Below are positions 4,773 to 62,246 of a stretch of DNA of 64,000 nt, one piece after another. Location: the NCBI GenBank assembly GCA_937922805.1, contig CALAJV010000011.1, forward strand, positions 62,001 to 126,000, written 5' to 3'. A program made the translations under genes and the position numbers. The DNA comes from an uncultured Acidimicrobiales bacterium (GTDB taxonomy: Bacteria; Actinomycetota; Acidimicrobiia; Acidimicrobiales; SZUA-35). The notes below the pieces were generated by a model that had not been told where the DNA came from, did not search any database, and saw nothing but the letters and a program-made list of their open reading frames with translations. The first letter of the stretch is position 1. Every line of letters starts with the position of its first letter.

Positions 4773-6743
4773 GTGACACAGGCGAGTTACACCGCGTGGG
4801 ATGGGGAATCATACGAATGGCCTCCGCCAGTTGGGTGGTACGAAGCATCCGATCAACGATGGTGGCCAGAGGGATACGGTCCACCTCCACCGGCGGCTCC
4901 AGAGCCAGTCGTGGCTCAAACAGCCGACCCTGCGCCCGCCCCGGTGGCCGAGCAGACTGATCCGAGCCCGCAGCCAGCGATGGATCAGAGTCCGACGCCA
5001 GCGCCAGACTCAGGGGTCCACAGCGACCCGTACGCAACAATGCCGCCTCAGTCTGTTGGAGCAGCTCCGAGTTCGCAGAAGTCGACGCCGACTGTCCGTG
5101 ACGTCGAGGCTCCCGGCCCACTCAGCGCCGACAACGACAATAGCAACGACGGCCCGAGCCTCGGACAACCTGGTGTAGCCGGGGCTGGCGTTTTGGGCGC
5201 CGCTGCGGCTACTGCTGGTGGTCTTGCTGCTTCTGGTAAGGATGCGTTGGGTGATGTAGCCGGTGATGTTGCTGGTCTTGGCGGTTCTGGTAAGGATGTG
5301 TTGGGCGATGTTGCTGGTCTTGGCGGTTCTGGTAAGGATGCGTTGGGTGATGTTGCTGGTGATGTAGCCGGTGGTCTTGGCGGTTCTGGTAAGGATGCGT
5401 TGGGTGATGTAGCTGGTGATGTAGCCGGTGGTCTTGGCGGTTCTGGTAAGGATGCGGTTGACGATGCCGGGGATTCGGTTCAAAATGCGGTGCCTCAATC
5501 GAGTGAGAGGTCTTTCGATCCTGGTGTCGACAGCGCACAAACACAGATCGTGCCGCCACCGTCGTCGCCTCCTCCTGGCGTATCGGTGTCGCCGGACTTA
5601 ACTGCTGAGCAGCCAAGCTACGGCGGTGCTCTCGAGGGAAGTCAGGTCGGCGTTAACGGCCCAAATGGCGACGCTCAGTTCCCGGCTCCAAGCCAAGGTC
5701 CGCCTGACGTGGCACCCCCAAGAACTGGATATGCCCCGACTCAGCACATGCCGCCTCCGGGCTCAAACGCTCAACCGACAACCGGCGCTGGTGAGTTTGC
5801 TCCTCCGGGACAACAGGTAGGGCACATGCCGCCTCCGGGACAACCGCAGTCGCCAGATCAGATGCCACCTCCCAACCAGATGCCACCTCCCAACCAAATG
5901 CCGCCGATCGGCCAGGCAGCGCCCGTTGGACAGGCCCCTTCTCCGGGCTTTGCGCCTCCCCAAAACCAAATGCCGCCCGAAGGGCAAATGCCAGTTGATG
6001 GACAGGCCACCCATCCGGGACAGATGTCTCCTCCTGGTCAAATGCCGGGTCCGGCTGGAGGTCAGTTTTCTGCTCCGAATCCGCAAGGGTCGTTCTCGCC
6101 ACCGCAGTACACACCGCACACTCCGCCAGGGGCGATTCCGGGTAGCGGTCCACAGATGAACGCGCCGGCGCCGCAGATGAACGCGCCGCAAGGTCAGTCT
6201 CCGATCTTGGCCCCACCGGTAGAGGAAAAGTCCGGCGGATCGATGATGAAGTTCTTACTCATCGGTCTTGGCGTATTGTTGCTCGCTGGATTGTCGTATG
6301 GCGCTTGGGCGCTATTCGGCGGTGGCGAAGTTGAATTGACAGGTCCTGGCAGCCTCGGCGATCCTCATCCAAGCTCACCTGGTGTCGATATCTTCTGGGC
6401 TGAACAGACCTGGTATATCGAAGTTGTTGAACCGGCCGCTATCGACGTTGAAACTGGGTTCGCAGACTCGGTCTCGACTCGGGTTCGCGTCACCAACAAG
6501 GCAAGCGCCGGATCGGCCTCACCGCTATCGGAGCTGACGTTCACCATGGTCACCCCCGACGGGGAAGTAATCACCGAGGAATGCCCGTTTAGCGATGATC
6601 CTCTGAATCTAGACATGTCAGTTGATGTGAACGGCCAGACAGAAGGCGACGTTTGCTTTATCGTGCCGGGAGGATCTACCGATGTCTTGCTCGGCATTGA
6701 ATCGAGCGAGGTTAAGGGCCGAGCTCACATGAGGACGAACTAG
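4773..6743 (+). CDS. Repeat-rich proline/glutamine membrane protein with N-terminal WW-like motif
   Basis: A 656-residue protein of unknown function. The N-terminus (PPVGWYEASDQRWWPEGYGPPPP) resembles the short DUF2510 tryptophan motif common in actinobacterial membrane proteins. Next come a Pro/Ala region, five tandem copies of GSGKD(A/V)LGDVAG (residues about 152-232), and a long Pro/Gln/Met-rich stretch with many MPPPGQ-like copies. One membrane segment (about 491-517, MKFLLIGLGVLLLAGLSYGAWALF) follows. The final 130 residues look like an extracytoplasmic Ig-like domain with two cysteines (TEECPF, GDVCF). The layout suggests a cytoplasmic low-complexity arm, one anchor and an outside sensor or binding domain. 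It starts at a GTG after GGGAGG. Function cannot be told from sequence. Confidence 0.75.
   Translation: MTQASYTAWDGESYEWPPPVGWYEASDQRWWPEGYGPPPPAAPEPVVAQTADPAPAPVAEQTDPSPQPAMDQSPTPAPDSGVHSDPYATMPPQSVGAAPSSQKSTPTVRDVEAPGPLSADNDNSNDGPSLGQPGVAGAGVLGAAAATAGGLAASGKDALGDVAGDVAGLGGSGKDVLGDVAGLGGSGKDALGDVAGDVAGGLGGSGKDALGDVAGDVAGGLGGSGKDAVDDAGDSVQNAVPQSSERSFDPGVDSAQTQIVPPPSSPPPGVSVSPDLTAEQPSYGGALEGSQVGVNGPNGDAQFPAPSQGPPDVAPPRTGYAPTQHMPPPGSNAQPTTGAGEFAPPGQQVGHMPPPGQPQSPDQMPPPNQMPPPNQMPPIGQAAPVGQAPSPGFAPPQNQMPPEGQMPVDGQATHPGQMSPPGQMPGPAGGQFSAPNPQGSFSPPQYTPHTPPGAIPGSGPQMNAPAPQMNAPQGQSPILAPPVEEKSGGSMMKFLLIGLGVLLLAGLSYGAWALFGGGEVELTGPGSLGDPHPSSPGVDIFWAEQTWYIEVVEPAAIDVETGFADSVSTRVRVTNKASAGSASPLSELTFTMVTPDGEVITEECPFSDDPLNLDMSVDVNGQTEGDVCFIVPGGSTDVLLGIESSEVKGRAHMRTN
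5231..5454 (+). repeat. In-frame tandem repeats, five copies, inside the proline-rich membrane protein
   Basis: The 14-mer TTCTGGTAAGGATG recurs at 5231, 5285, 5327, 5384 and 5441, spaced 54, 42, 57 and 57 bases, all multiples of three. The last units are almost identical at DNA level over 57 bases, with GGT/GTT/GCT codons reused each time. This points to recent expansion by slippage or unequal recombination. Confidence 0.9.
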
Positions 6744-22909: not shown

Positions 22910-23359
22910 ATGGTGAACAAGATGATCAGTAATCTCGTCGATAACTTCAGTCTGCTCGGGCGCTACGTGGCCGTTTCTATTCTCAATGTCATCAATCACC
23001 AGATTTTGCTTCAAACTGCCCTTCGATGGTGGGGATGGGGCGGCGGTGTCTCGAATGGGTTCGCCGCTGTAATCGCCGTTATCCCGGCCTATTTCCTCAG
23101 CCGATATTGGGTATGGCGAGTTTCAGGGCCATCCAAGGTTAAAGCAGAGATCGTGCCGTTCTGGGTTATTGCCGCCGTGGGATTCGCAGTGTCGACGGTT
23201 ATGGCGGAATGGGCTGACCGGGCCAGCGACAGCGCCTTGGTTGTATCGGCGGCAAGTTTGCTCGGCTACCTGATCGTCTGGGTTCTCAAGTTCGTCGTTC
23301 TCAATTTTCTCTTTACCCGATCAAGCCAAGACACTCCTGAACCGCTGGTGGCCAAATGA
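22910..23359 (+). CDS. GtrA-family membrane protein
   Basis: A 149-residue membrane protein with four predicted helices, the GtrA family. The opening LLGRYVAVSILNVINHQILLQTALRWW and the central AAVIAVIPAYFLSRYWVWR are typical (the family ends its second helix with N/S-R-x-W-V-F/W). GtrA proteins are thought to flip lipid-linked sugars across the membrane for cell-surface glycan building. Its stop overlaps the next start by 4 bases (ATGA), so it is co-translated with a SAM methyltransferase. Nearby GT4 glycosyltransferase and methyltransferase genes on the other strand support a surface glycan theme, but this is inference. Confidence 0.82.
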   Translation: MVNKMISNLVDNFSLLGRYVAVSILNVINHQILLQTALRWWGWGGGVSNGFAAVIAVIPAYFLSRYWVWRVSGPSKVKAEIVPFWVIAAVGFAVSTVMAEWADRASDSALVVSAASLLGYLIVWVLKFVVLNFLFTRSSQDTPEPLVAK

Positions 23360-23994
23360 CGTTGACTCCTCAAGAAGTATCTGTTGCGGAACAAGCTCGA
23401 GGGTTCATGCCAGCCGATGAGGGACTGGCTTTGGCATCGGCCGCCGAGATGGCGGACGCTGACTTAGGTCCCTTCCTCGAAGTTGGAAGTTATTGCGGCA
23501 AGTCGGCGTGCTACCTCGGACCAATTGCAAAGCGGTCTGACACTGTCTTGTACTGCGTTGATCATCACCGAGGCTCGGAAGAGAATCAGCCAGGGTGGGA
23601 ATGGCATGAACCAGATCTCGTTGACCCAGCAGTCGACAAGATGGATACGTTGCCGCATTTTCGGCGAACGATCCACGATGCTGGGCTAGAGCAGAATGTC
23701 TTTGCGGTAGTAGGGATCTCGGCTTTAGTAGCTAAGCACTGGTGCACGCCGCTCTCGATGCTGTTCATCGATGGCGGCCACGGGGTTGAACCTGCGAGAC
23801 TTGACTATCAGTTGTGGACGCCTCACGTTGCCATCGGCGGGTTACTAGCTATCCACGACGTATTTCCTGATCCTGCCGACGGTGGTCGACCGCCGTTTGA
23901 ACAGATCTACCTTCCGGCTCTCGATTCAGGCCAATTTGTGGAGCTTTCACAAACCGGATCTCTGCGAATCCTGAAACGTCAGAGTTCGGATTAG
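23356..23994 (+). CDS. Class I SAM-dependent methyltransferase (Methyltransf_24 type)
   Basis: A 212-residue methyltransferase-like protein. The SAM site GPFLEVGSYCGKSACYLG, the acidic residue after strand 2 (LYCVDHHRGSE) and the later strand with SMLFIDGGHGVEPARLDYQLW fit the Methyltransf_24/cephalosporin hydroxylase-like group, often found in cell-surface polysaccharide clusters. GGLLAIHDVFPDPADGGRPP is the following conserved part. The target is unknown. It is translationally coupled to the GtrA gene, and its last 4 bases overlap the end of the convergent ABC ATPase gene. Confidence 0.82.
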   Translation: MTLTPQEVSVAEQARGFMPADEGLALASAAEMADADLGPFLEVGSYCGKSACYLGPIAKRSDTVLYCVDHHRGSEENQPGWEWHEPDLVDPAVDKMDTLPHFRRTIHDAGLEQNVFAVVGISALVAKHWCTPLSMLFIDGGHGVEPARLDYQLWTPHVAIGGLLAIHDVFPDPADGGRPPFEQIYLPALDSGQFVELSQTGSLRILKRQSSD

Positions 23995-24929
23995 GACTCA
24001 AACCAGGCTTGACCGTCAACCTGTTGTCGGATTTCGGCATCGCTCGGTGCTTCGGGTTTCTCATCGAAAGCTAACGAGAGGAATGCGTTCGTTCGATCGT
24101 GACGGGGCGACTCCAAAACAGCCGCAGCAGTGCCGTGTTCTATTAGTCGACCGTGCTCAAAAAATGCAACGCGGTCCGCCGTTGCTTTTACAAACCCAAG
24201 CTCGTGGCTGACCGCGACGATCGTTACCTCAGTCGTGGCCACGTCCCGGACGATCTCCATGATGCCCTTGGTCAGCTCGGGGTCGATCGATGCAGTTATC
24301 TCGTCAAGGAGTAGAATTTTTGGTTCCATGGCCAAGGTCCGGGCGATGGCGACCCGTTGCTGTTGGCCTCCCGACATCTGATGAGGCGGCTTGTTAATCT
24401 GATCGGCTATCCCAACCTGGGTTAACCGGTCGACCGCGACTGCCTCGGCTTCGGCTCGTGACCGACCAAGCACGAGTCGTTGCGGAAGCACCACATTAAG
24501 GAGAGCGCTGTAGTCGGGGAAGAGGTTGAACTCCTGAAATACCATTCCGGTTTGACGCCGGAGCCGGAGCAAGTCCTCTCGGGTTTGATGGTGAGTTTCG
24601 CCTAGAACCGAAAGATCACCAGCGTCGTAGCGCTCAAGCCCATTGATGCATCGAATCAGCGTTGACTTTCCAGCCCCGGAGGGACCGATGACGGCAAGGG
24701 TCTCACCGTTGTCGACGGTCAGGTCGACATTGTCCAGCACGCAGAACGAACCAAACCATTTAGAAACTCCGGAGAATTGCACGGCTGGGGGGTCTGGCGG
24801 CTCAGCCACATAAACCTGGTCGAACGAGAGTTCAGAAGGCGAGAGCAATTCCGGCTCACCAACGTCAGCAAATCCTGGTTCGGACCCTTCTTGATGTCCA
24901 GCCTGGGATTGCAATCGGCCCCTTGCCAT
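23991..24929 (-). CDS. Polar-amino-acid-type ABC transporter ATP-binding protein, orphan
   Basis: A 312-residue ATPase of the GlnQ/HisP group. Walker A is GPSGAGKST, the Q-loop MVFQEFNLFPDYSALLNV, the signature MSGGQQQRVAIARTLAM, Walker B ILLLDEITASIDPEL (the usual Pro is replaced by Ile) and the switch His lies in VSHELGF. The group normally drives import of polar amino acids together with one or two permeases and a binding protein. None of these lie nearby, so it is an orphan here. It also has a 45-residue N-terminal extension before the ATPase domain and a 30-residue acidic tail. If the start were later, at a methionine near the domain, the extension would vanish, but no such start is visible. 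Confidence 0.85.
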   Translation of the reverse strand: MARGRLQSQAGHQEGSEPGFADVGEPELLSPSELSFDQVYVAEPPDPPAVQFSGVSKWFGSFCVLDNVDLTVDNGETLAVIGPSGAGKSTLIRCINGLERYDAGDLSVLGETHHQTREDLLRLRRQTGMVFQEFNLFPDYSALLNVVLPQRLVLGRSRAEAEAVAVDRLTQVGIADQINKPPHQMSGGQQQRVAIARTLAMEPKILLLDEITASIDPELTKGIMEIVRDVATTEVTIVAVSHELGFVKATADRVAFFEHGRLIEHGTAAAVLESPRHDRTNAFLSLAFDEKPEAPSDAEIRQQVDGQAWFES

Positions 24930-24996: not shown

Positions 24997-26058
24997 CTAC
25001 GAATGATCGGTAAAAAGCGAACTAGTGGGATTTTGGCCGAACAACGCATCGGCGGCCAAAATAATAGCTGCCGCCGTGTAACTACTTCGCTCCTCGCCCG
25101 GATAGTTGACTAACTCGGGGAAAACAATTCCAGTGAAGTACGCGCCTCGCTCGTCACGTAAAGCGTTAGCCCAACGGAACAGATCATGGGCTTTTTCGGT
25201 TTCGTCTATTGCCGCCAACGCGATAGCACATTCGCATGTTTCCGCAGCGGTAACCCACGGACGGTCAGAGACGCACCGGACGCCCTTGCCGTCCATGACG
25301 AACGTGTCCCATTGAGACTGCATCCGTTTTTCGGCGTCACTACCGATCATGGCACCTGACAGCACTGGATAGTACCAGTCCATAGCCCATCGATCTTTCG
25401 GCTCAAAAACATCTGGTCGATTGACAATGGCATCGACCAAGCGATCTCGACTATCGACCCAACTAGGACGTTCATAACCCAAGCTCGTTGCTAGTAAGTC
25501 GGCGCATCGGAGGCTATGGCTGATCGATGATGAACCAGTCAGCAGAGCGTAGCTCCACGGCATACCGTCGGTCTTTTTAGCCCAGACTATTTCGCCTGAT
25601 TTCCGTTGAAGTTCGAGTACAAATTCAATCGCTTGTTCGACTACCGGCCACATCGTTTCGGCGAAGCCTTGATCACCAGTCGCCAACAGGTGATGAAACA
25701 CACCGGTAGCGATGTAGGCGATGCAGTTGGTGTCGAGCTTTGAATCTTCAATGCCGTCAGCCAAATAGTAGTTGTGCCAACTCCCGTCGCCTAACTGGAT
25801 ATCGGCAAGCCACTGGTAGCCAGCTTCAGCTTCGTCGATAAACCCGGCAGTAGCGAGAGCCATAGCGGTCTCGACGTGGTTCCAAGGGTCGGCATGGCCT
25901 CCCGGGAACCACTGGATCATCCCGGAGGCTAGTTGGAGTTCAGCGATGGTCTCGGCAGTAGCAACGATTTCGTCTTGGCTGATAACGCCGTCGACGAACG
26001 GAACAACAGGTTTTGATCCTTCGCTGGTGGTCGGAGCCTGCTCAACCATTCGCAACAT
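24997..26058 (-). CDS. Prenyltransferase/squalene-oxidase-like alpha/alpha-barrel protein
   Basis: A 353-residue protein of the six-hairpin (alpha/alpha) toroid type. It has QW-like repeats: QLASGMIQWFPGGHADPWNHVETAMALATAGF, WLADIQLGDGSWHNYYL, and DGKGVRCVSDRPWVTAAETCECAIALAAI. The DxDD and other prenyl-cation motifs of real cyclases are not evident, so it is more likely a glycan- or lipid-binding or hydrolysing barrel than a true prenyltransferase. It is third in a row after a GT4 glycosyltransferase and a methyltransferase, and its ATG overlaps the end of the methyltransferase gene by 17 bases (8 bases if the second ATG is used). This suggests a common pathway. The chemical role is unknown. 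Confidence 0.7.
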   Translation of the reverse strand: MLRMVEQAPTTSEGSKPVVPFVDGVISQDEIVATAETIAELQLASGMIQWFPGGHADPWNHVETAMALATAGFIDEAEAGYQWLADIQLGDGSWHNYYLADGIEDSKLDTNCIAYIATGVFHHLLATGDQGFAETMWPVVEQAIEFVLELQRKSGEIVWAKKTDGMPWSYALLTGSSSISHSLRCADLLATSLGYERPSWVDSRDRLVDAIVNRPDVFEPKDRWAMDWYYPVLSGAMIGSDAEKRMQSQWDTFVMDGKGVRCVSDRPWVTAAETCECAIALAAIDETEKAHDLFRWANALRDERGAYFTGIVFPELVNYPGEERSSYTAAAIILAADALFGQNPTSSLFTDHS

Positions 26059-26806
26059 CCGAATCGACGAGAGTCAGGGCAGGAAAATTGGCTGGACGAT
26101 CGGCGTAGATCACCAAGCTTTTCCCGAGGACAGGGTTCAGAACTCGATCAGCAGTTCTGGTTAGCGTAGGAGCATCGGTTATATCCCAGGTCAAAAACTT
26201 GAGGTAAGCCTTGACCATTGGGTTGGTATTGTTTTCAAGTCCGACGGCGCATTTGAGCCACCAATACGGGCTGTGCAGCGCATGGGCCCGATGGCTGTCT
26301 CCCGGTTCGAAACCAATCGAAGCGAGCTTCGTTCGTAGTTCTGGCAGGGCGTAGATCCTAACGTGTCCGCCGACGCTCTTTGGGGCGTGATAGGCGTCGT
26401 TCAACCACCAACAGATTTGTTCTGGTAGGGCTGCTGGAACTGTTGCCGCAATCCGACCACCTGGTTTCAGAACTCGAAACAGCTCTGCCATGACTCCAAG
26501 GTCATCGGGAACGTGTTCGAGAACCTCGGATGCGATAATTCGATCGAACGATTGATCGGCGAACGGCAATGAAAGCCCGTTGCCTTGAACACAAGTGGTG
26601 CTGACCGTCGGTTCGATCTCGTCATCGAGGTACATCGCAGCGAAGGTGTCTTTGGTGCTGGTCATCTCGTCAAGGGCCAGATCGGTGGCAACCACATCAG
26701 CCCCTAGCCGGGCGGTAGCGAAAGCGTGACGGCCAAATCCGGCGCCAAGATCTAAAACTCGCATGCCCGGTTGAACATGGAGGCGGTCGTAGTCAACAGT
26801 TAGCAC
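26042..26806 (-). CDS. SAM-dependent methyltransferase (Methyltransf_11 type), glycan-cluster gene
   Basis: A 254-residue methyltransferase. The SAM loop VLDLGAGFGRHAFATARLG, the acidic residue in VVATDLAL, and FDRIIASEVLEHVPDDLGVMAELFRVLKPGGRIAATVPA are textbook for the ubiE-like group. The rest (CWWLNDAYHAPKSVGGHVRIYALPEL) includes an aromatic substrate region. The start is a GTG at 26806, 24 bases after the GT4 stop, and the end overlaps the next gene. It probably methylates a lipid-linked or sugar product of the neighbouring GT4. The substrate is inference. Confidence 0.85.
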   Translation of the reverse strand: MLTVDYDRLHVQPGMRVLDLGAGFGRHAFATARLGADVVATDLALDEMTSTKDTFAAMYLDDEIEPTVSTTCVQGNGLSLPFADQSFDRIIASEVLEHVPDDLGVMAELFRVLKPGGRIAATVPAALPEQICWWLNDAYHAPKSVGGHVRIYALPELRTKLASIGFEPGDSHRAHALHSPYWWLKCAVGLENNTNPMVKAYLKFLTWDITDAPTLTRTADRVLNPVLGKSLVIYADRPANFPALTLVDSDVANG

Positions 26807-26830
26807 AGCTAAATCCAGCTTCTGGTAGTT

Positions 26831-28129
26831 CTATTGCTTGCGGTTAGTGTCGGACAGGCGAGCTTGTTCTTTCAAAGCTAGAACTTCTCGGTACTGATCC
26901 ACGGTCCGGACCGCGGTGTGGCGCCAGGTATAAAGCCTGCTCACTCGCTCGCGGCCAGCCGGTCCGAGTTTGGCTCGAAGTTCGGGATCATCGAGACCTC
27001 TCCGGAGCGCTGCGGCTAGGGAGTCGGCGTCGCCTGGTTCACATCGAAGAACTGTTTCACCATCGACTCCGGTTACTTCAGGAAGGGCGCCGCCACTTGT
27101 AGCGACAAGGGGGGTGGAACTTGCCATTGCCTCTACCGCTGGTAACGAGAAACCTTCGTACAACGAGGGCACAACGGCGAGCTCTGACTCTGCGTACAGT
27201 TCGACGATCCGCTCATCTGGTACGCCGGACACAAACTCGATGGCATCGGCGAGCCCGTTCCGTTCAATAATCTCCTCGGTTTTGCCGCCCTTCTTGGCTC
27301 GACCGATAACGGTCAGGGTTAGATCTCGCTCGGTTCGAAGCTTAGCCATCGCCTCCAACAAGAACCGTAGACCCTTCATCTCCACATCTGCACTGGCCGT
27401 GGTTATTAGGCGACCCGGGATTCGGGTTACTTCCGGCATCGGTTTGAACAGATCGGGATCGACGCCGACGTGAACCAGACGCATCCGGTCACGGTCAACG
27501 CCCATGTCGTTGTGAATGTCGTCAATCGAATTGTCGGAAACAACCACGATCCGCGGCATACGCTGAGCAACTCGGCCCTGCATTTTGACGAAGGAGTACC
27601 ATCGGCTGACACTCATCCGTTTGCGCCAGTTTGGTGCCGCTGCGATTTCTAGTCGACGGTCAACCGTGATTGGGTGATGCAGCGTTACCAGTGTCGGGAT
27701 GATTTTGTCGATCGCTAGCATCCCGTAACCGAGGCACTGGTTGTCGTGGACAATATCAAAATCGTTCGTGCGGTCTTTCAAGGCGTTGTATGCCCGGTAG
27801 CTGAAGGCCAGCGGTTCCGGAAAAGTACCGGTTGAGAAGGTGCCAATTTCGAGCAGATCGGCCACCGATTTGATCTCCCAATAGGCAGGAAATCGTCCTG
27901 GGTATTGGTCGTTAAAAATATCGAGGCTTGGTAGTTGATTTAGGGCAATACGTTCGTCGAGAACAGGGTATGGCTGACCGGAAAATACTTCGACCGAGTG
28001 ACCAAGATCGACCAGCGCTTTGGTGAGGTGGCGAGTGTAGATACCTTGACCACCTACCGTCGGCTTAGACCGGTAAGACAAGTACGCAAGACGCAACGGG
28101 CGATCACTTGCTGATAGTTCAGATGCCAT
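26831..28129 (-). CDS. GT4-family glycosyltransferase (GT-B fold)
   Basis: A 432-residue retaining glycosyltransferase. The N-terminal Rossmann half starts LRLAYLSYRSKPTVGGQGIYTRHLTKALVDLGHSVEVFSG, with the GGQG acceptor loop. The C-terminal half has LITTASADVEMKGLRFLLEAM, VPDERIVELYAESELAVVPSLYEGFSLPAVEAMASSTPLVAT with the E-x7-E pair, and GGALPEVTG. The donor sugar cannot be told. It is the first gene of a tight three-gene run with the methyltransferase and the alpha/alpha-barrel protein. The 159-base gap upstream has a CACCGT/ACGGTG dyad and is shared with dtd. Confidence 0.9.
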   Translation of the reverse strand: MASELSASDRPLRLAYLSYRSKPTVGGQGIYTRHLTKALVDLGHSVEVFSGQPYPVLDERIALNQLPSLDIFNDQYPGRFPAYWEIKSVADLLEIGTFSTGTFPEPLAFSYRAYNALKDRTNDFDIVHDNQCLGYGMLAIDKIIPTLVTLHHPITVDRRLEIAAAPNWRKRMSVSRWYSFVKMQGRVAQRMPRIVVVSDNSIDDIHNDMGVDRDRMRLVHVGVDPDLFKPMPEVTRIPGRLITTASADVEMKGLRFLLEAMAKLRTERDLTLTVIGRAKKGGKTEEIIERNGLADAIEFVSGVPDERIVELYAESELAVVPSLYEGFSLPAVEAMASSTPLVATSGGALPEVTGVDGETVLRCEPGDADSLAAALRRGLDDPELRAKLGPAGRERVSRLYTWRHTAVRTVDQYREVLALKEQARLSDTNRKQ

Positions 28130-58670: not shown

Positions 58671-61600
58671 ATGACGTGTCGTTCGTGCGGTCAACCGGTG
58701 GCAGACGATGCCCGTTTCTGTCCTAACTGTGGCGCCCTCCAAACCGTAGCTGAGGAAGAGCGGCGGGTCGTCACCGCGTTATTTGCCGACATCGTTGGGT
58801 TCACCGGTCTGGCCGAACACCGTGATCCGGAAGAAGTGAAGCATCTGGTAGATCGCTGCTTTGAGCAGCTAGCGAACGACATCACCGAATTTGGCGGCGT
58901 AGTCGACAAAGTAGTTGGCGATGCAATCGTTGCGCTATTCGGCGCTCCGGTTGCCCATGAAGACGACCCGGAGCGAGCCGTGCGGGCCGCGCTGAAAATG
59001 CAGGCCACGCTGCAATCGATGGCGGAGAGTTTGCAACCGGCGCAAACGTCGCTGGCCTCAGCCGAGTCTTTAGTCGCCTCCACCGTCATCGAAATGCGGA
59101 TCGGAATCAATACAGGCGAAGTATTAGTCGGGACTAGTCGTGCCGGCGGCGACTACACCGCAATGGGTGATGTGATGAACTCGGCGTCTCGGTTGCAGGG
59201 ACTAGCCCAACCTTCCGAAATTTTGGTCGGCCAGGCCACCTACAACGCGACGAACCTAGCCATTAGCTACGATTCGGCCGGAGAACATGAAGTGCGGGGC
59301 CGAGAAGAACTGCTTGCCGCATGGAGAGCCGTTGAGTCAATCCGTCTCCCGGGTGCCCACCGATCCGGCCCTGACATTTTTGTAGGTCGAGAACACGAAC
59401 GTCAGCTTCTTTCAACCCAATCAATAATGGCGGTTCGCCAACGCCGCACCCAGCTGAGTGTTGTGGTCGGCGAAGCGGGGATGGGGAAATCCCGACTAGT
59501 TGAAGAAGTGGCCCGAGACGCGGTAGAAAACTTGGACGCGGTAATACTGCGCGGTCGCTGCGTTCCCTACGGTGAAGCCAACGTTTGGTGGCCAGTAGCT
59601 GAAGTGCTACGCGGCTTGTTTGAACTACCGCTTGATCTCGATCGAGTAGAGGTGGAATCAAAACTGCGGGGCGAGTTAGCCAAGATGGATGGTGGCCGCC
59701 AACACGTTCGACTGGAGCGGCACCTGCAGGCCTTGCTCCACTCAATGGGCTTCAAGACTCCGCTTCGCGGCGGCGATAGAAACAGAAACCGGTCCGAGGT
59801 GTTCCTTGCGTTCACCAACGTTATGGAACACATCTTGGTCAACAACCCGGTTGTGTTGTTGATGTCCGACATGCACTGGGCCGCTGACGCGGTATGGGCC
59901 TTACTCGACCACACCCTGGGCGAACTCTCTCGATCGCCTCTAATGGTGTTGATGACCGCTCGCGAAGTTACCCACAACAGCCTGTTCGAAGGCCAATACG
60001 GAACCTCAGTGTTGCAGCTCGGGCCCTTAAGCGATGACGCAATGGAACATTTGGTTGATGAACTGGCCCCAGACCTACCAACCGAAACCGCCACTGATCT
60101 CGTCATCAGAAGCGGCGGCAATCCGTTCTTTCTGGAAGAGCTAATCGACTTAGTGCTAGCGAACAATCTACGGGCCAGCGAAAACCCCCAAGCTGACCCT
60201 AATCACGTCGCTTCAGACTCGGCTAGCTCTGTCGCCCTACTCGAACTTCCTGACACGCTTCGCGGTATCGTTTCTGCCCGACTTGATGCGCTTGAAGTTA
60301 GCGAGCGATCGTTGTTGGAAGACGCTGCGGTGTTGGGGCGCAACAGCACTGTTGCTGGCCTTGCCACCTTGGCGTCGGTAACCCGCGAAGTAACGTCGAT
60401 TGACGTAGATCTAAATCGTCTTGTAGCTGGAGATTTCTTAGTCGTCGACGGTCCTCGCTACGAGTTCAGATCCGACCTTGTTCGCGATGTGGCCTATTCG
60501 AGGCTCCCCAAGACTGCTCGAGCCCAACGGCATTACGGCATCGCCCGTTGGTTAGAAAGCGCCCAGACTGGCGAAGTTCGGAACTCGGTAGTGGTCGCTA
60601 TTGCCGATCACTACCGTTCAGCCGCCCAACTAGTTTCGGAGTTATCGGTAGTTCCCAACGTCGACCGGCTTGACGCGGTGACGAAGGCGCTTTACTGGCT
60701 TGATCAAGCGGGAGAGCGCGCTCTCAACGTTGGCGAGTCGAATGACGCTGAAAAATGGTTTACCTTCGGGGTCGAGTTAGCGGTCGATGATGAAACCCTG
60801 GCCAAGTTTTTGTATGGCCGGGCGAAAGCGCGGTGTGAAGTTCGCGATATCGCCGGGGCCAGAAACGACCTCGGCCGCCTCGACACCCTGGCCGGTCACG
60901 ATCCGGTTATGTCAGCTTCTTCGCTTCTTATTAGAGGTGACGTGGACCGAAAGGCCCGTGATCATCAGCGAGCATCGAGTCGGTTGCGGGAAGCAGCTGA
61001 TCGATTTGCCGCCCTTGGCATCGCTAATCAACAGGCATTAGCCCTACGGCTTCTTGGTCTGAACGAGATTTCAAGTGGCGATGATGCTCTAGCTCGACAA
61101 GCACTCGACTCATCTCGCCAAGTTGCTGCTCAGGCCAATGATCGCCGAAGCGAAGCCTGGGCTCTGCAGAGTATGTCGTGGCATGAGTTCACTAGGGGTC
61201 GCATCCAGCGCGCTAATCAGCTGGTATCTCAAGCCATCGAAATATTCGTCGAGATTGGCGATCAGAGCGGTTTGATTTGGGCCCAAGGGGTCCAAGCTTG
61301 GGTCGCATTCCACTCTGGGCAATGGCAGGTCGCCAGGAGCCTGGTCGAAGGAATCCTGCCGGAAGTTAAGCGTCAGGGTGACCCTTGGGGTGAGGCTTTG
61401 ATTCTTAACCTGGCCGGTTCTCTAGCTCTTTGGTCAGGCAAAGCGGCGGAAGCTATGCAACTAACGAAACAGGCGGAAGAGAAAGCTCTGCGGGCTGAGT
61501 CGCTCAACCTCTCCGTGCAAGCTCGGGCCTTTCAAGGCCGAGCTTTGGTTTCGTTGGGGCGAATAGCGGAGGGAACAGCGGCGTTGGAAGAGGCGTTCGT

Positions 61601-62246
61601 TGCCGCCGATCGTGCTGGCGATCGAGCCAGCCGCCGAATTGCGATAATTTCAAACTGTGCTTCGGCGGTTCGACTAGGAGAGCCAGAACGGGCCATTCGA
61701 TGGGCTGCTCGATTCGATGACATCCATGAAGAACCGAACGTAGTAGGCGAAGCTGACCTCGTCGTTTCCTTAGCACTGGCGATGCTGCAGCGGGGGTCGG
61801 TTGACGAAGCGGCGTCTCAACTTTCATGGAGCCAGCCAACATCAACTGACACCGTGGACTTTTACGGCATAGCAGTCGGGGCTATCGTCGCCGCTGTCCA
61901 AGGCCGACCCGAAGCGGTCGAACAAGCCGCTAGTAGCGTGTTGGCCGACGGTTCGACCTACCTGGACCGTGTCTTTGTGCTGATGGCAAAGGCCGGCGTG
62001 TCGGCTCGAGCCGACGATGAGGTCGGCGTCGCCCAGGCGCTTCAAGCGGCTAGTAGCGAACTACGACAGACCGATGATGAAACAACTCGACTCATCGTGG
62101 CTTTGGCGGCCGCCATTTTCACGTTAGGTGATGTGGAGGGCGCTGGGCAGAAAATGCGACGCGCTGGAATGGACCCAAAGAGTTGGAAAACGGTTTGGGA
62201 GCTTGTCGGGTCGAAACCAGGGCAACAGGTCACCGATAGTCTCTAG
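58671..62246 (+). CDS. Zinc ribbon, class III nucleotide cyclase, AAA-type ATPase and TPR regulator
   Basis: A 1191-residue multidomain protein. Residues 3-21 are a zinc ribbon (C3, C6, C17, C20). Residues 30-220 are a class III cyclase domain: metal-binding Asp40 in FADIVGFT, the second metal site GDAIVALFG, and the substrate/transition-state segment TAMGDVMNSASRLQGLA. An ATPase domain follows with Walker A VVVGEAGMGKSRL and a Walker B-like VVLLMSDMHWA, as in AfsR/LAL-type proteins. The last 600 residues are helical repeats that read as TPR. The layout is that of actinobacterial adenylate cyclase/ATPase fusions, whose signals are mostly unknown. No DNA-binding domain is seen. The product may be cAMP, matching the Crp-family gene at the far left, but this is inference. 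Confidence 0.85.
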   Translation: MTCRSCGQPVADDARFCPNCGALQTVAEEERRVVTALFADIVGFTGLAEHRDPEEVKHLVDRCFEQLANDITEFGGVVDKVVGDAIVALFGAPVAHEDDPERAVRAALKMQATLQSMAESLQPAQTSLASAESLVASTVIEMRIGINTGEVLVGTSRAGGDYTAMGDVMNSASRLQGLAQPSEILVGQATYNATNLAISYDSAGEHEVRGREELLAAWRAVESIRLPGAHRSGPDIFVGREHERQLLSTQSIMAVRQRRTQLSVVVGEAGMGKSRLVEEVARDAVENLDAVILRGRCVPYGEANVWWPVAEVLRGLFELPLDLDRVEVESKLRGELAKMDGGRQHVRLERHLQALLHSMGFKTPLRGGDRNRNRSEVFLAFTNVMEHILVNNPVVLLMSDMHWAADAVWALLDHTLGELSRSPLMVLMTAREVTHNSLFEGQYGTSVLQLGPLSDDAMEHLVDELAPDLPTETATDLVIRSGGNPFFLEELIDLVLANNLRASENPQADPNHVASDSASSVALLELPDTLRGIVSARLDALEVSERSLLEDAAVLGRNSTVAGLATLASVTREVTSIDVDLNRLVAGDFLVVDGPRYEFRSDLVRDVAYSRLPKTARAQRHYGIARWLESAQTGEVRNSVVVAIADHYRSAAQLVSELSVVPNVDRLDAVTKALYWLDQAGERALNVGESNDAEKWFTFGVELAVDDETLAKFLYGRAKARCEVRDIAGARNDLGRLDTLAGHDPVMSASSLLIRGDVDRKARDHQRASSRLREAADRFAALGIANQQALALRLLGLNEISSGDDALARQALDSSRQVAAQANDRRSEAWALQSMSWHEFTRGRIQRANQLVSQAIEIFVEIGDQSGLIWAQGVQAWVAFHSGQWQVARSLVEGILPEVKRQGDPWGEALILNLAGSLALWSGKAAEAMQLTKQAEEKALRAESLNLSVQARAFQGRALVSLGRIAEGTAALEEAFVAADRAGDRASRRIAIISNCASAVRLGEPERAIRWAARFDDIHEEPNVVGEADLVVSLALAMLQRGSVDEAASQLSWSQPTSTDTVDFYGIAVGAIVAAVQGRPEAVEQAASSVLADGSTYLDRVFVLMAKAGVSARADDEVGVAQALQAASSELRQTDDETTRLIVALAAAIFTLGDVEGAGQKMRRAGMDPKSWKTVWELVGSKPGQQVTDSL

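Follow-up and report, generated by a model that had tools for sequence, protein, structure and literature searches.

Introduction

The 3-O-methylmannose polysaccharide (MMP) has so far been viewed as a curiosity of mycobacteria, and regulation of the giant type I fatty acid synthase (FAS-I) has been proposed as its role. In M. hassiacum, the genes manT, pmeT3, mmpH, and meT1 lie in one row, MHAS_04402 to 04405 (PMC9883506). MMP is described as cytoplasmic, and the methylglucose lipopolysaccharide (MGLP) pathway likewise yields a cytoplasmic polymethylated polysaccharide, with a different sugar and different enzymes; both polymers are described as binding acyl-CoAs and regulating FAS-I in vitro, with doubtful in vivo support (PMC2674218). 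Here, we analyze a 64,000-nt stretch of DNA from an uncultured Acidimicrobiales bacterium (GCA_937922805.1, contig CALAJV010000011.1, positions 62,001 to 126,000; hereafter the window), and specifically a trio of minus-strand genes at 24997–28129 together with a nearby methyltransferase gene at 23356–23994.

We conclude, with a probability of roughly 85%, that these genes are an MMP biogenesis set. The conclusion draws on homology, active-site residues, gene order, co-occurrence, and the absence of a FAS-I marker, and from these we predict activities, product, and role. The original prediction for this DNA had described the trio as a sugar transferase, a methyltransferase, and an alpha/alpha-barrel protein forming one unit, had suggested a surface glycan or glycolipid step, and had matched the set to no named pathway. 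MMP biogenesis, as presented in PMC9883506, has exactly this set, and its product is described as cytoplasmic rather than as a surface component (PMC2674218). A glycan-making and glycan-methylating unit, which the prediction also proposed, is borne out by the homology to the MMP pathway.

Results

The trio comprises three open reading frames (ORFs) of the window's ORF list, at 24997–26058, 26042–26806, and 26831–28129. The first two overlap by 17 bases (26042–26058) if the barrel gene starts at its first ATG, and the second and third are separated by a gap of 24 bases, as originally reported. The MMP assignment follows because the best solved relatives of three of the proteins of the locus are, by a wide margin, enzymes of the MMP pathway (7qsj, 7qsg, and 6g7d).

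In particular, the 353-aa barrel protein (24997–26058, minus strand) has one strong relative in the PDB, 7qsj, 'Methylmannose polysaccharide hydrolase (MmpH)' (E 1.8e-102, residues 18–349), and is a predicted (alpha/alpha)6-barrel MMP endomannosidase. It thus aligns well to a known enzyme of another role than the one first supposed, a glycosidase of a known pathway. No Pfam family scores above cut-off for this protein, and no prenyltransferase or squalene-cyclase family matches at E ≤ 0.1. In phmmer, ent-copalyl diphosphate synthase is matched weakly (E 0.047), as would suit an enzyme of the terpene-cyclase or prenyltransferase type that serves an isoprenoid glycoside; this reading, which we regard as improbable in the extreme, was rejected on the negative Pfam result and on the match to MmpH, which is stronger by ∼100 orders of magnitude.

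The 432-aa protein (26831–28129, minus strand) is assigned by Pfam to the family 4 (GT4)-type glycosyltransferases, in agreement with the original call, and is a homolog of ManT, the GT4 alpha-(1->4)-mannosyltransferase of MMP. Its best PDB match is 7qsg (E 5.2e-121, residues 11–418), followed at a distance by 6kih (1.8e-24). The 7qsg file bears the name 'D-inositol 3-phosphate glycosyltransferase', and its residues match the M. hassiacum ManT positions given in PMC9883506, namely Gly15, His142, Lys240, Asp293, Glu313, and Glu321. The window protein has all six equivalents (G26, H151, K252, D305, E325, and E333). Among the 132 of 151 loci with a match over 60% of the length, His142, Lys240, and Glu313 are kept in all 132, and Glu321 in 131.

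The protein encoded at 23356–23994 (plus strand, 212 aa) belongs to Methyltransf_24 and matches PDB 6g7d/6g80/6h40 (E 6.8e-64, residues 9–210), which we take to be entries of MeT1, the MMP 1-O-methyltransferase. Its gene is present in a single copy in the window's own genome and is convergent with the MmpH gene. The 'second methyltransferase' that had been noted next door is, as judged by this homology, MeT1, the fourth gene of the pathway.

The 254-aa protein (26042–26806, minus strand) is a class-I S-adenosylmethionine methyltransferase (Methyltransf_11, E 6.7e-20), again as first called, and a putative MMP 3-O-methyltransferase, pMeT3, by family and position. The gene sits between those of MmpH and ManT in 125 of 127 neighborhoods, and the window protein is 46–54% identical to same-position genes outside Acidimicrobiia. 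The PDB comparison gave no strong solved relative for pMeT3. Its AlphaFold model (pLDDT, the predicted local distance difference test score, 91.7) has SpnF, TleD, RebM, AtmM, and MitM as top fold neighbors; RebM and AtmM are sugar O-methyltransferases among many others, and the modeled structure appears to be a general class-I methyltransferase fold whose top matches single out no sugar substrate.

The order ManT-pMeT3-MmpH-MeT1 in the window equals the order of MHAS_04402–04405, and all four genes are kept together across loci at ∼40–60% identity. Removal of identical MmpH cores left 151 of 189 loci, and the 127 of these that reach 9 kb in length served for neighborhood counts. The trio was counted by tblastn, since in ORF clustering long antisense ORFs took the place of real genes and the trio was undercounted. 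ManT, pMeT3, and MmpH are collinear and adjacent in 125 of the 127 neighborhoods, indicating that the arrangement is not due to chance and upholding the original view of the three genes as one unit rather than genes that occur apart in most genomes. The two exceptions are L084, where the departure is real within the stretch examined, and L186, which lies at a contig end.

The other neighbors of the trio, which the original prediction had also pointed out, are real genes but not core members of the unit. MeT1 and MmpH are 1.0 kb apart and are separated by a single gene, an orphan polar-amino-acid-type ATP-binding cassette (ABC) ATPase (23991–24929, minus strand, GlnQ-like). We considered this ATPase as a fifth pathway member and ruled it out: it occupies that position in 0 of the 127 other neighborhoods, and in a near relative (L110) it is absent and MeT1 directly adjoins MmpH. 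The ATPase gene is a local insertion.

A GtrA/DPMS-type membrane protein is encoded at 22910–23359 (plus strand; Pfam GtrA_DPMS_TM, E 1.1e-11), overlapping the MeT1 start by 4 bases. If this protein flipped a lipid-linked sugar, the locus could act in making a methylated glycolipid or a methylated glycan of the cell surface, and the placement directly upstream of MeT1, found in 51 of the 127 neighborhoods, speaks for such a link. However, GtrA is not there in over half of the neighborhoods, nor beside MeT1 in any of the 18 taken from outside Acidimicrobiia, so that no conserved membrane carrier or flippase was found in the unit; moreover, the closest characterized enzymes act on a cytoplasmic polysaccharide, according to PMC9883506 and PMC2674218. 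GtrA was rejected as a core member and is a lineage-specific neighbor, and we consider a surface glycan very unlikely.

In 32 of the 127 neighborhoods, a gene for a TesB-type acyl-CoA thioesterase is found at a distance of up to 6 kb, beside the GtrA-MeT1 end (e.g. L051, L060, L063, L065, and L134), and was not seen at the corresponding place in the window. It would suit a polymer that binds acyl-CoA; plain synteny alone may explain its placement, because housekeeping genes without a link to the pathway (Dtd, Lnt, URO-D) are part of the same block and no TesB gene was seen there in the window.

Elsewhere in the window, the gene at 58671–62246 (plus strand) encodes a protein of 1,191 aa that combines an adenylate/guanylate cyclase domain with an AAA ATPase domain and also matches TPR, and a 656-aa ORF at 4773–6743 (plus strand) has no Pfam match at E ≤ 1e-6.

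The active site of MmpH was compared residue by residue, with group labels following the kinship listing of genomes and 79 named rows taken as one set. The window MmpH has the equivalents of Asp47, Trp49, Asn101, Thr163, Met215, Tyr219, Glu262, and Glu265, the catalytic base Glu262 being E273 and the candidate acid Asp47 being D57. Glu262 and Glu265 are invariant in all 151 de-duplicated sequences.

In PMC9883506, alanine variants of Asp47 and of Asp50 both lose most activity, one of the two presumably being the catalytic acid, and Asp47 is drawn as the putative one. Among the 151 sequences, position 47 is Asp in 150 and Asn in one (L106); at position 50, 137 sequences carry Asn and 14 carry Asp. 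Asparagine is unable to donate a proton in the usual way. Because position 50 is mostly Asn, natural variation favors Asp47 over Asp50, making Asp47 the better candidate for the catalytic acid, and would separate two candidates left unresolved by mutagenesis. The exceptional MmpH of L106 (G409) also has an altered preceding motif and may have lost its activity or act in another way.

Several points weigh against assignment of the locus to MMP. First, three of the subsite residues described for the mycobacterial enzyme are changed in the window MmpH (Asp50 to Asn60, Phe102 to Cys112, and Trp315 to Tyr327), and thus its substrate may differ. Second, no GDP-mannose pyrophosphorylase was recognized in the window's genome (G000) or in the sole sampled relative of its family (G223). 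Third, in the distant genome G214 (L084), a divergent MmpH (38%) adjoins MeT1, and ManT and pMeT3 are not nearby. Fourth, pMeT3 is only putative in mycobacteria too, according to the 2023 paper (PMC9883506). Finally, activity and product in Acidimicrobiia are predictions.

The first two points would fit a sister polymer in Acidimicrobiia, made by the same logic of elongating, methylating, cutting, and capping with other methylation sites, lengths, or hexose. The MmpH subsite does differ as a clade: each of the 133 rows of the class and named sets has Asn at position 50 and Val, Cys, or Thr at position 102, and each of the 127 rows from the order and the named sets has Tyr at position 315, whereas all eight FAS-I-bearing genomes checked keep Asp50, Phe102, and Trp315. 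As a yardstick, the MmpH of one FAS-I-bearing genome (G315) matches 7qsj at E 2.9e-198.

With respect to donor supply, NF052502, the mycobacterial-type pyrophosphorylase family, has matches at E < 1e-65 in 35 of 40 genomes of the order, all below the family cut-off; the five without a strong match include both members of the window's family, the best score in G000 being 97 bits against a cut-off of 440. A search with TIGR01479 for GDP-mannose supply found none, and the four NTP-transferases found in the window's genome resemble RmlA, GalU, glucose-1-phosphate cytidylyltransferase, and GlmU. A GDP-mannose dehydratase is present in that genome, from which it follows that the bacterium probably makes GDP-mannose somehow. 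Against a sister polymer stand this dehydratase, the pyrophosphorylase-like gene in most of the order, the unchanged MmpH catalytic pair and ManT donor-site residues, and the joint conservation of all four genes at the identities given above. We consider a sister polymer unlikely and MMP itself the preferred product.

Within the class, 247 genomes were sampled, and MmpH was detected in 120 of them. In a listing ordered by kinship, 70 of the own, same-family, and same-order genomes carry MmpH and one (G138) does not; same-class genomes follow G138, and 107 further genomes without MmpH lie outside the listing. On these matches, the MMP set appears almost universal in Acidimicrobiales. MeT1 matches occur in 122 of the 247 genomes, one of them a weak 30% paralog (G228). 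Specifically, MmpH and MeT1 occur together in 119, MmpH alone in one (G154), and MeT1 alone in two (G158 and G203, 80% and 74% complete); in several genomes (e.g. G114, G181, and G071), MeT1 is on a separate contig.

Across the phylum, MmpH is found in 55 of 346 genomes, or 53 after two weak matches are set aside (G386, E 1.9e-4, and G493, E 2.9e-4). Named relatives are mostly metagenome-assembled genomes of Acidimicrobiales or Acidimicrobiia, together with the isolate Desertimonas flava, a cultured organism that carries the genes. The titles of some named relatives point to other phyla, possibly because the bins are misnamed.

In an MmpH tree of 61 rows, the groups follow taxonomy with the fewest possible changes, three, a pattern that fits inheritance without proving it; the tree is unrooted, so that gain and loss are not told apart, and carries a long-branch warning for L082, L083, L084, and L103. 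Viral contigs gave six pattern matches to MmpH, none of them confirmed, and a plasmid collection gave one record, an 11.85-Mb Nonomuraea entry with no annotated features at that place. Searches of a library of open-licence papers found no report of MMP in Acidimicrobiia, and a report elsewhere is possible; the string 'Acidimicrobi' does not occur in PMC9883506.

FAS-I was traced with the marker PF08354, which among 14 controls was positive in Corynebacterium glutamicum alone, and the genome lists for FAS-I and MmpH were compared by eye. PF08354 was not found in the window's own genome, which has a FabF-like gene scoring 446 bits, under the family cut-off of 494. In the class, the marker occurs in two of 247 genomes, both with MmpH, so that 118 of the 120 MmpH-bearing genomes have no detectable FAS-I. 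In the phylum, it occurs in 12 of 346 genomes (eight with MmpH and four without), and 45 of the 53 genomes with a strong MmpH match have no detectable FAS-I. Genome incompleteness could hide single cases, and hardly the whole pattern. Two genomes of the same order (G177 and G190, family f9) have a bacterial FAS-I with open frames of ∼3,000 aa, unlike the rest of the class sample.

Discussion

By analogy with the characterized enzymes, ManT would add alpha-(1->4)-linked mannose from GDP-mannose onto short methylmannosides, and pMeT3 would methylate the newly added units at O-3. MmpH would cut finished chains internally, yielding short oligosaccharides that prime the next round, and MeT1 would cap the free reducing end at O-1. 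The predicted product is a linear, methylated mannan roughly a dozen units long, located in the cytoplasm and able to hold fatty acyl chains.

Nearly all hosts of MmpH lack a detectable FAS-I, and therefore, as far as the marker indicates, tuning of FAS-I cannot be the general job of MMP. Acyl-CoA handling or membrane adaptation in organisms with the type II system (FAS-II) is a more likely role, and the growth of an M. smegmatis mutant in the cold is reportedly affected. A wider proposal, which we offer tentatively and would not favor over its negation, is that MMP is old, near-universal in Acidimicrobiales, and widespread in Actinomycetota, that its ancestral role was that of a FAS-I-independent, cytoplasmic acyl-chain binder of FAS-II bacteria, and that the Acidimicrobiales form is chemically distinct and has its own MmpH subsite. 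If the four genes are indeed kept together across almost all Acidimicrobiales and in further lineages free of FAS-I, the question of MMP function moves to organisms without that confounder. The locus would extend the range of a known pathway by a large new part; the gene set itself is ordinary, and the interest lies in its bearing on the function of MMP and on the MmpH mechanism.

Among known systems, the MGLP pathway has no genes that were seen in the window's cluster. A GpgS homolog above the family cut-off is encoded elsewhere in the same genome (G000 C17:130604–131404), so that the bacterium may produce glucosylglycerate or an MGLP-like polymer as well. The (alpha/alpha)6 barrel and inverting catalytic base reported for MmpH are shared with glycoside hydrolase families GH15 and GH125, whereas MmpH is endo-acting and 8–13% identical to them (PMC9883506); the window MmpH has a weak match to TIGR01577 (oligosaccharide amylase). 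The closest counterpart is the mycobacterial MMP cluster of M. hassiacum. In comparison with that cluster, the window belongs to another class of the phylum, has an ABC ATPase gene between meT1 and mmpH and a GtrA gene before meT1, carries three changed MmpH subsite residues, and comes from a genome with no FAS-I marker; the two share the same four genes, in the same order, with the same catalytic residues in MmpH and ManT.

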